Origin: Thermorudis peleae
GTDB lineage: Bacteria; Chloroflexota; Chloroflexia; Thermomicrobiales; Thermomicrobiaceae
Direction of reading: 5' to 3'
DNA: 64,000 bases
NCBI RefSeq assembly: GCF_000744775.1
Contig: NZ_JQMP01000004.1
Span: 124,001 to 188,000, forward strand
The notes beneath the pieces were generated by a model. That model was not told the origin of the DNA. It saw only the letters and a program-made list of their open reading frames with translations, and did no database searches. A program made the position numbers and the translations under genes. Shown piece by piece: positions 15,669-18,118 of the stretch (positions within the stretch are counted from its first letter, which is position 1; each line of letters opens with the position of its first letter).

Positions 15669-15962
15669 ATGCGACCAACATCAGCCCAACAACCAACAGT
15701 CACGGTAGAATTGTTCGGCGTGCCACAGCTCTTGGCTCAAACCCGGCAGGTCGAGCTCTCGGCCGCGACGTTGCACGAGCTTGCCCAGCAACTCGCGACA
15801 CGCCTCCCCGCGCTTGCAGGCAGCGTGGTCGATCGCGCTACCGGCTGGCTCCTGCCGGGCTACATCTTCGTCGTCGATGGGCGCTTCACGCGCGATCCGA
15901 ACTACCAGCTCGCCCGTGGCGCACGTGTCCTTTTAGTCGCCGCACAAGCGGGAGGCATGTGA
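15669..15962 (+). CDS. MoaD/ThiS-like sulfur-carrier protein linked to AOR
   Basis: Small ubiquitin-fold protein of 97 residues, probably donating sulfur during molybdopterin or tungstopterin assembly. It starts VTVELFGVPQLL, has the helix ATLHELAQQLATRLPAL, and ends with VLLVAAQAGGM. Family members normally end in Gly-Gly; here one Met follows (codons GGA GGC ATG TGA), so the C-terminus would need trimming before activation. The bases encoding Gly-Gly also form the GGGAGG ribosome site of the next gene, whose ATG begins one base after the stop. The context with aldehyde:ferredoxin oxidoreductase strongly supports a pterin-cofactor role. Confidence 0.85.
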   Translation: MRPTSAQQPTVTVELFGVPQLLAQTRQVELSAATLHELAQQLATRLPALAGSVVDRATGWLLPGYIFVVDGRFTRDPNYQLARGARVLLVAAQAGGM

Positions 15963-15963
15963 G

Positions 15964-17796
15964 ATGAAGGCCGTACACGGCCAGTGCCTCGTGGTCGACC
16001 TCTCCGATGGCACTGCGACCGCAGTTGCATTACCTGAGCTGGTCTTTGCCAGCGTCTTGGGCGGGAACGGTCTTGCCAGCTACCTGCTGTACCGGTTCTG
16101 CCCGCCCGGGGCCGATCCGCTTGGGCCAGAAAACCCCCTGATCTTTGCGACAAGTCCTTTCCTCGGCACTGGGCTCACGACATCGAGCAAGCTTGCGTTG
16201 GCCGCCAAGTCACCGCAAACCGAGCGCATTGGCGATTCAATTTCCTCAAGCTACCTTGCACTTGCGCTGAAGCATACTGGCTTCGATGCCCTGGTCATTC
16301 GCGGGCAAGCGCGAGACTGGTCCGTCTTGATCGTCGAAGACGACCAGGTACGCCTTGAGCCTGCTGACGACATGCTCGGGCTTGACCCCACGGCAACCGC
16401 TGACGCACTGCGGGCGCGCCTCGGACGGGGCTTTCGCGTCGCGGCCATCGGGCTTGCCGGTGAGCGCGGCGTCCGCTTTGCGTCGATCAGCAACGATGGG
16501 CGCCTGGCTGGTCGCACGGGCCTCGGTGCCGTGATGGGACAGAAACGGTTGAAGGCTGTTGCCGTGCGTGGCACGCGCCCGCTGCCGTCAGTGGCTGATC
16601 CGGCGGCGGTCGCTGCGGCTGCGCGGGCCCTCGCGGCACGGAGTCAGGGGCCGGAGACAGCGAAGTACCGCGTGCTCGGCACGGTTGCCAACGTTGCGCT
16701 GTTCAACCGGCTCGGCGTGCTCCCAACACGCAACTTCCAGGCTGGACAGTTTGAGGGGGCCGAGGAACTGAGCGGTGAACATCTCGTTACCACGCGCCGC
16801 GTCGATACCCATGCCTGCGCTGCCTGCACGATTGGCTGTGAGCATCATTTCCTTGCGAAAGGCAATGGGGCAAAGGCGCGGCTCGAGTATGAAACGCTTT
16901 ACGCCCTCGGCCCGCTTTGTGGCATCGCCGACCCTGATATCGTGGTGCAAGCCGCAGCCCTCTGCGATCGCTACGCGATGGACGCCATCAGCGCCGGCGG
17001 CACGATTGCGTGGGCAATGGAGTGTGTTGAACGCGGGATTGCCCTCCCTGGTGATCCCGCAGACTGGCCTCGTTTCGGCGATGGCCCAAGCCTCTTGCGC
17101 GCCCTCAACCTGATCGGCCAACGGCAGGGGCCACTTGGTGCGCTGCTGGCTGAAGGCTCGCGCCGCGCTGCGCACGTGCTTGGTCAGGGCAGCGAGGCAT
17201 GGGCCATGCATGTCAAGGGGCTCGAGCTGCCCGGCTACGACCCGCGTAAGCTCAAGACGATGGCGTTAGGGCTGGCAGTCGCAACCCGGGGGGCGTGTCA
17301 CAACCGCTCTTCAGCCTATGAAGTCGATTTCTCCGATCAGCTTCCGCCCGATGCCGCAGCACGCGCGCGTGCGGAAGCCGCTGTCCGGGCGGAAGATACC
17401 GCAGCCGTTATCGACTCGTTGACACTCTGCAAGTTCTTGCGCCACTGCTTCGACGACCTCTTTGCAGAGGCTGCCCACCTCTGGACGCTCGTTACTGGCT
17501 TACCCCTTGATGCTGATGGCCTTCGGCAAGCTGGTACACGGATTAACACTCTGAAGAAAGCCTTTAACCTTCGCGAGGGATGGACGCGCCACGAGGACAC
17601 GCTGCCGCCACGCCTCCTGCAGAGCCCCGACTCGCTCGTTGATGGCACTGAACTTGACCGTCTTGTCGCGGCATACTATGCAGTGCGCGGCTGGGACGAC
17701 GCCGGGCGGATTCCGTTGCCCCAGTGGCGCGCACTGGGGCTTGAGGCACTCCTCGGCCCCCTTGAAGGGGTGTGCGGCGGCTATGCTCGACGATGA
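15964..17796 (+). CDS. Aldehyde:ferredoxin oxidoreductase family (tungsten/molybdenum pterin enzyme)
   Basis: Oxidises aldehydes to acids, passing electrons to ferredoxin through a [4Fe-4S] cluster next to a bis-pterin W or Mo centre. 610 residues, the normal size. N-terminal domain: VVDLSDGTAT, FASVLGGNGLASYLL, then GTGLTTSSKLALAAKSP and LKHTGFDALVIRGQA. The cluster ligands are CAACTIGC near residues 284-291 and the later Cys in SLTLCKFLRHC. VKGLELPGYDPRKLKTM and TRGACHNRS are also typical. GGGAGG at 15951 is the ribosome site. The gene is coupled to the MoaD-like gene upstream and overlaps a small coiled-coil gene downstream by 14 bases. The aldehyde substrate is unknown. Confidence 0.93.
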   Translation: MKAVHGQCLVVDLSDGTATAVALPELVFASVLGGNGLASYLLYRFCPPGADPLGPENPLIFATSPFLGTGLTTSSKLALAAKSPQTERIGDSISSSYLALALKHTGFDALVIRGQARDWSVLIVEDDQVRLEPADDMLGLDPTATADALRARLGRGFRVAAIGLAGERGVRFASISNDGRLAGRTGLGAVMGQKRLKAVAVRGTRPLPSVADPAAVAAAARALAARSQGPETAKYRVLGTVANVALFNRLGVLPTRNFQAGQFEGAEELSGEHLVTTRRVDTHACAACTIGCEHHFLAKGNGAKARLEYETLYALGPLCGIADPDIVVQAAALCDRYAMDAISAGGTIAWAMECVERGIALPGDPADWPRFGDGPSLLRALNLIGQRQGPLGALLAEGSRRAAHVLGQGSEAWAMHVKGLELPGYDPRKLKTMALGLAVATRGACHNRSSAYEVDFSDQLPPDAAARARAEAAVRAEDTAAVIDSLTLCKFLRHCFDDLFAEAAHLWTLVTGLPLDADGLRQAGTRINTLKKAFNLREGWTRHEDTLPPRLLQSPDSLVDGTELDRLVAAYYAVRGWDDAGRIPLPQWRALGLEALLGPLEGVCGGYARR

Positions 17797-18118
17797 TGAA
17801 CTCCTCTTGCTCGAACTGGAGCGGGTGCGTCTTCCCTCTCCAGTCCTGAGTCGCATCGAAGAACTGGCAGAAGAGCGACGTCAGCTCTTGCGCGCGATCG
17901 CGGATATGCCATTTTCGCCCGAACGGGACGCTGCCCTGCGCCGCGTTACCGAACTGAGCCTTGAACTGGAACGGCTCTGGGATCTGCGCCGTCGCGAGCT
18001 GCTCTTCGTCCGTCAGGCGTTGCATCCCGAACAACCAGACGAGCCAACGACGCTGGAAGAGGTCGAAGAGCAAGCCAGCCTGGACGAGCAGTCAGCGGAA
18101 CACTCGCACGGCGAATAG
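17783..18118 (+). CDS. Small charged coiled-coil protein coupled to AOR
   Basis: 111 residues, no family recognised. It begins MLDDDELLLLELERVRLP and is almost entirely helical by composition, with Leu/Glu/Arg heptad-like runs (RIEELAEERRQLLRAIA, TELSLELERLWDLRRREL). The acidic tail is rich in Glu and ends SAEHSHGE. The ATG lies inside the AOR coding end (14-base overlap), so translation is probably coupled. It could be an AOR accessory or a short-lived adaptor; no iron-sulfur Cys motif is present, so it is not the AOR ferredoxin partner. Confidence 0.75.
   Translation: MLDDDELLLLELERVRLPSPVLSRIEELAEERRQLLRAIADMPFSPERDAALRRVTELSLELERLWDLRRRELLFVRQALHPEQPDEPTTLEEVEEQASLDEQSAEHSHGE

Follow-up and report, generated by a model that had tools for sequence, protein, structure and literature searches.

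The question raised by this locus is how a MoaD-like sulfur-carrier protein, encoded with a methionine behind the Gly-Gly that should form its C-terminus, could serve the tungsten-type aldehyde:ferredoxin oxidoreductase (AOR) encoded next to it, and how that methionine came to be there. The locus lies in a window of 64,000 nt (the whole stretch of DNA that was analyzed) from Thermorudis peleae, and its features are collected in Table 1. The open reading frame was read as ending in LLVAAQAGGM, with GCG GGA GGC ATG TGA as its final codons. The encoded protein thus ends in Gly-Gly-Met rather than in the terminal Gly-Gly of the ThiS/MoaD family, which would be regained only if the Met were removed.

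Table 1. Features of the MoaD-AOR locus (positions are those of the window).
Feature	Position	Strand	Basis
MoaD-like sulfur carrier of 97 aa, ending in AQAGGM	15669..15962 (stop 15960-15962)	+	ORF call, Pfam, PDB profile matches, predicted fold
GGGAGG, ribosome-site-like sequence for AOR, within the Gly-Gly codons and 8 nt upstream of the AOR ATG	15950..15955	+	Sequence reading, codon-use comparison
Gly95-Gly96 codons (GGA GGC), invariant	15951..15956	+	17-row alignment
Extra Met codon (tail)	15957..15959	+	ORF reading, orthologue C-termini
AOR, 610 aa, sole AOR detected in genome	15964..17796	+	AFOR_N 215 bits, AFOR_C 349 bits
Third gene in the run (111 aa), without Pfam or NCBIfam family	17783..18118	+	Homologue at same place in Thermomicrobium loci

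Membership of the protein in the ThiS/MoaD family was supported both by sequence and by its predicted beta-grasp fold. Pfam returned a ThiS match (PF02597) of 28.2 bits against a cut-off of 22.5, and a profile built from 17 homologues matched PDB chains of MoaD-related proteins and of SAMP1 (1v8c, 2m19 and SAMP1). The fold was predicted with a mean pLDDT of 91, falling to about 64 in the last residues; when this model was submitted to Foldseek, SAMP1 and MoaD were the nearest solved folds (E-values of 9e-7 to 1e-4). A single nucleotide separates the MoaD stop from the AOR start codon (ATG TGA G ATG). Assignment to the AOR-linked MoaD set, which is associated with the tungsten cofactor, is based on strict adjacency and on the shared sequence profile. 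The initial annotation had reported both the AQAGGM end and the linkage to a tungsten-type AOR, and both were borne out, the latter by the AFOR_N and AFOR_C matches.

The gene order is that of Thermomicrobium roseum NC_011961, in which the MoaD/ThiS protein of the matching locus has a bare GG end. The third gene overlaps the 3' end of the AOR gene, and no family for its protein was found in Pfam or NCBIfam. Three Thermomicrobium-type loci (L109, L110 and L117) carry a homologue of it (68–74% identical) after the AOR gene, and a weak, broken homologue was seen in a further locus (L118).

The initial annotation had called for a survey of AOR-linked MoaD proteins for extra residues, and this was carried out at three levels. 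Within the bacterium's own family, 21 genomes were searched and the gene was found in 19; 13 of these genes end in bare GG and six encode one or two residues past it, namely M (the present genome), VS (G316), VA (G407), AS (G370 and G406) and VR (G410). The GG is kept in all six tailed members, and the residues behind it vary freely. A search of 400 genomes of the phylum returned 25 matches, 10 of them within the family, although one (L029) is a false match and four (L018, L030, L031 and L032) show no AOR link on the examined flank. Outside the family, the sole AOR-linked MoaD with a tail (17 residues) was that of G294; there, the MoaD stop overlaps the AOR start region, with the AOR ATG standing eight bases ahead of where that stop ends. 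A scan with the MoaD alignment found too little conserved to be of use. Named genomes were scanned with an AOR alignment, from which the best 80 of 578 loci were taken, a choice that leans the sample toward close AOR relatives. In these 80 loci, a same-strand MoaD matching the profile to its last column was found in 66 and no match in 14; all 66, which come from several phyla, carry the GG, and only two have a tail (VR in L110 and 17 residues in L126). These two are apparently the genomes G410 and G294 counted a second time. The basic 17-residue tail, ending in RRKKKLRHE, was seen in two AOR-linked loci (L126 and L201), in both of which the stop overlaps the AOR start. At the AOR locus of a Thermus plasmid, no MoaD is annotated beside AOR. 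On these counts, a tail on an AOR-linked MoaD is a rare variant.

The history of the tail was followed on an AOR tree of 20 sequences, from which G404 and G137 were left out because no AOR start satisfying the selection rule was found in either. Three changes of tail label were needed on the tree, of which well-supported branches force two; the position of our own sequence was not resolved. The dN/dS ratio was 0.11–0.30 in six pairs of tailed MoaD genes (G407 was left out), and the coding sequence is therefore under purifying selection where this could be tested. This ratio and the conservation of the GG speak against decay of the gene, as judged from sequence comparison; the latter is not a purely protein-level signal, since the Gly-Gly codons appear also to be held as a ribosome site. 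A sequencing or assembly error, or a decaying gene, could be entertained inasmuch as the genus is represented by one genome, but we give this practically no credence, and a frame error or pseudogene was rejected as the source of the Met: five orthologues from other genomes are tailed at the same place, the frame is intact, and selection is purifying.

That the Gly-Gly codons double as the AOR ribosome site had been proposed in the initial annotation, and codon use at the 66 loci with a MoaD (from the best 80 of 578 AOR loci) agrees with it. Of the 35 loci in which the AOR start lies 4–11 nt past the first five Gly-Gly bases, 23 use GGA for the penultimate Gly, compared to 3/31 of the other loci (Fisher p = 3e-6) and 35/244 of the internal Gly codons in these genes (p = 5e-10 vs. 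the near loci); the far loci showed no such GGA bias (p = 0.43). These Fisher tests ignore relatedness, and the AOR start was assigned automatically to whichever start codon lay closest to the match, with alternatives existing in several loci. Given the bias at in-range starts, reuse of the diglycine codons as a ribosome site for AOR looks widespread.

The same annotation had further suggested that the Met is a by-product of packing a ribosome site and a coupled start into the end of the gene. One part of this stood: in every tailed gene found, the MoaD stop codon lies at the AOR start or overlaps it. Among the tailed genes, ATGA or GTGA overlaps occur four times and TGATG once, the present genome has ATGTGAGATG, and G294 has a longer overlap. 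As long as the Gly codons hold the ribosome site in place, the ATGA, GTGA and TGATG overlaps force two codons past the GG. The distance between GGAGG and the AOR start codon fits this arithmetic: an ATGA or GTGA overlap at a 6-nt spacing requires exactly two extra codons, the arrangement seen in the four members of genus g3, and the 9 nt of G410 result from two codons and a TGATG overlap. In the present genome (8 nt), one codon and a one-base gap bring stop and start as close together as the overlaps do. The other part, a need for the Met in ribosome-site spacing, was rejected; bare-GG sisters in genera g2 and g4 have the same 8 nt (GGAGGC TGA nnnn ATG). An ATGA or GTGA overlap is also possible in some bare-GG genes (L022, L120, L150, L183 and others), and in these the AOR start stands directly behind the GG or is ambiguous.

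The company that the protein keeps in its genome bears on how a tail might be tolerated. Four ThiS-family proteins were detected by Pfam (a search that missed the AOR-linked MoaD in some family genomes, so that four is the number detected), and none of the four ends in bare GG. CysO ends in AMAGGR, the MoaD-MoaE fusion continues past GG as GGPFRV and is the sole MoaE detected in the genome, and ThiS has 20 residues past its GGG. The 3' end of this ThiS gene (L003, 1468–1749 on contig C3 of G000) overlaps a convergent ORF that is MGMT-like by sequence reading. In the family, a bare GGG end was found in 14 of the 15 ThiS proteins read, the exception being that of the present genome. In all 16 genomes where a CysO-type protein was read, it carries a tail or a fusion; MoaE was found in 19 of the 21 genomes, as a single copy that is in every case in frame with MoaD. 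All four further MoaD-like proteins of the family are tailed, with SAGR in L108 (G347) and L197 (G404), 18 residues in L198 (G405) and 31 residues in L199 (G400). In one CysO-type protein (L107, contig C34 of G405), a ThiF-like E1 domain is fused in frame past the GG. The genome of interest has two strong ThiF/MoeB (E1-like) genes.

A check of the genome for JAMM-type protease genes, also called for in the initial annotation, revealed one, with a Prok-JAB match of 93.8 bits and the motif HSHx7SxxD. By sequence, its product matched P. furiosus JAMM1 (PDB entries 5lda and 5ld9). Two features of a JAMM-processed Ubl precursor (of the HcyS, QbsE or MoaX type), residues past the Gly-Gly and a JAMM protease in the same genome, were both found. 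The JAMM gene is not part of the AOR operon, which counts against its acting on this tail: it lies beside cysO on contig C3, overlapping the cysO stop by ATGA, and AOR is on contig C4. Of the 21 family genomes, 19 gave a strong JAMM match, and the remaining pair have completeness values of 62% and 54%; matches above 50 bits were found in 7/7 tailed genomes and in most bare-GG genomes, including most of those tested outside the family. With JAMM in the tailed and in most of the bare-GG genomes, a presence/absence comparison has no power, and no statistic of dependence can be drawn from it.

The reading that we favor, with some reserve, is that the stop codon slid to the AOR start, that the short tail so created is trimmed by JAMM, and that the MoaD then supplies the sulfur of the AOR tungstopterin. 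In this lineage, the stop, once directly behind the Gly-Gly, would have moved up to the AOR start and left behind a tail that is short and variable (a single Met in the present gene), while the Gly-Gly codons would have been kept because they serve both sulfur carriage and the AOR ribosome site. The tail would be a minimal pro-peptide, removed by the genome's JAMM metalloprotease ahead of adenylation, and would be tolerated because that protease removes it. The same enzyme would be needed in any case to free the MoaD-MoaE fusion and CysO-Gly-Gly-Arg, which makes it the most economical candidate for the trimming. We infer that the cut would be followed by thiocarboxylation and by use of the trimmed protein in making the tungsten cofactor of the adjoining AOR; without its terminal Met, the protein would most likely work like a standard AOR-linked MoaD. 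A broader version, in which all sulfur carriers of this genome are made as precursors, one JAMM protease activates the thiamine, molybdenum-cofactor, tungsten-cofactor and cysteine routes, and this shared trimming lets stops drift beyond the diglycine as far as coupling with the following gene, is regarded as speculative and held only tentatively.

Two other accounts are both considered unlikely, to a similar degree. In the first, the Met is cut by a different peptidase, such as a general carboxypeptidase or another metalloprotease, and JAMM serves only CysO and the fusion. One or two small residues are within the reach of a general carboxypeptidase, and the location of the JAMM gene elsewhere on the genome fits such a division of labor; long extensions such as the MoaE domain or the 20-residue ThiS tail, however, could hardly be trimmed accurately to GG by an enzyme of that kind. 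In the second, the tail stays in place and the protein is no longer a sulfur carrier, being either redundant with the MoaD of the fusion or a partner protein of AOR. The presence of that second MoaD and the fact that the tail state has changed at least twice without apparent harm are in keeping with this, but the GG is retained in every tailed protein, the dN/dS values are low (0.11–0.30), and the gene sits beside AOR in 66 of the 80 best-matching loci (of 578). A function for the tail itself, for instance in delaying activation until AOR has been made, would be in keeping with the stops at or over the AOR start that accompany tails; it is very improbable, as neither the residues nor the length are conserved (M, VS, VA, AS, VR and 17 residues) and most relatives have no tail.

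If the favored reading is true, a signal for protein activation (the Gly-Gly) doubles as a ribosome site, a clean natural case of such reuse; loss of the exact C-terminus would be buffered by a protease, and several cofactor pathways would be predicted to be under the common control of a single JAMM enzyme. Automated sulfur-carrier calls should accordingly not require a terminal Gly-Gly. Two observations are of wider interest: diglycine codons serving as ribosome site, and the finding that every detected sulfur carrier of this genome is encoded with residues past its Gly-Gly.

Among the closest known systems is the distinct set of MoaD proteins described in 2006 as strictly adjacent to AOR, for which a role in the tungsten cofactor was suggested (PMC1779556). 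These share with the present protein the ThiS/MoaD family, a gene directly beside AOR and a C-terminal Gly-Gly; here, one residue follows the Gly-Gly, and tails on this set are not mentioned in the passages of that paper that were consulted. Its authors predicted that JAB peptidases free ThiS/MoaD proteins from fusions and, in the part concerned, stressed that JAB genes were absent from the Mo/W-cofactor operons surveyed, which counts against trimming by JAMM. Among the titles and abstract openings retrieved for MoaD C-terminal extensions, for AOR with MoaD, and for Thermomicrobium with AOR, no such tails were found. Precedents for such a cut exist: cleavage of M. tuberculosis MoaX between Gly82 and Ser83 is required for activity and is made by a protease that was not identified there (PMC4326299); DRJAMM cuts the Deinococcus MoaD-MoaE fusion so as to leave a C-terminal glycine and is needed for activation of the fusion (PMC8832034); and HvJAMM1 frees SAMP1-MoaE into active subunits (PMC4443979). 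In MoaX and the Deinococcus fusion, more protein follows the Gly-Gly and the glycine must be freed for activity; the present extension, by contrast, is one residue with no MoaE domain, on an AOR-linked protein. CysO with a JAMM protease and a cysteine synthase is listed as row 4c in the PMC1779556 table. That system is present in the same genome, where CysO ends in GGR and overlaps the JAMM gene, but it belongs to a different pathway and operon from the AOR-linked MoaD. The JAMM protease of the CysO system is of the Mec type. The best PDB sequence match of the profile, the Thermus thermophilus MoaD related protein (1v8c), has its Gly-Gly at 86–87 of 168 residues and thus carries about 81 further residues, compared to one here. 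HcyS and QbsE are sulfur carriers from which one or two residues past the Gly-Gly are removed by the JAMM proteases HcyD and QbsD; they serve methionine or siderophore synthesis, and the JAMM gene is in the same operon. Here, the partner is a tungsten enzyme and the JAMM gene lies outside the operon, although a same-operon JAMM gene does not hold for the DRJAMM and MoaX systems either. What the present protein has in common with HcyS and QbsE is a very short tail past the Gly-Gly.
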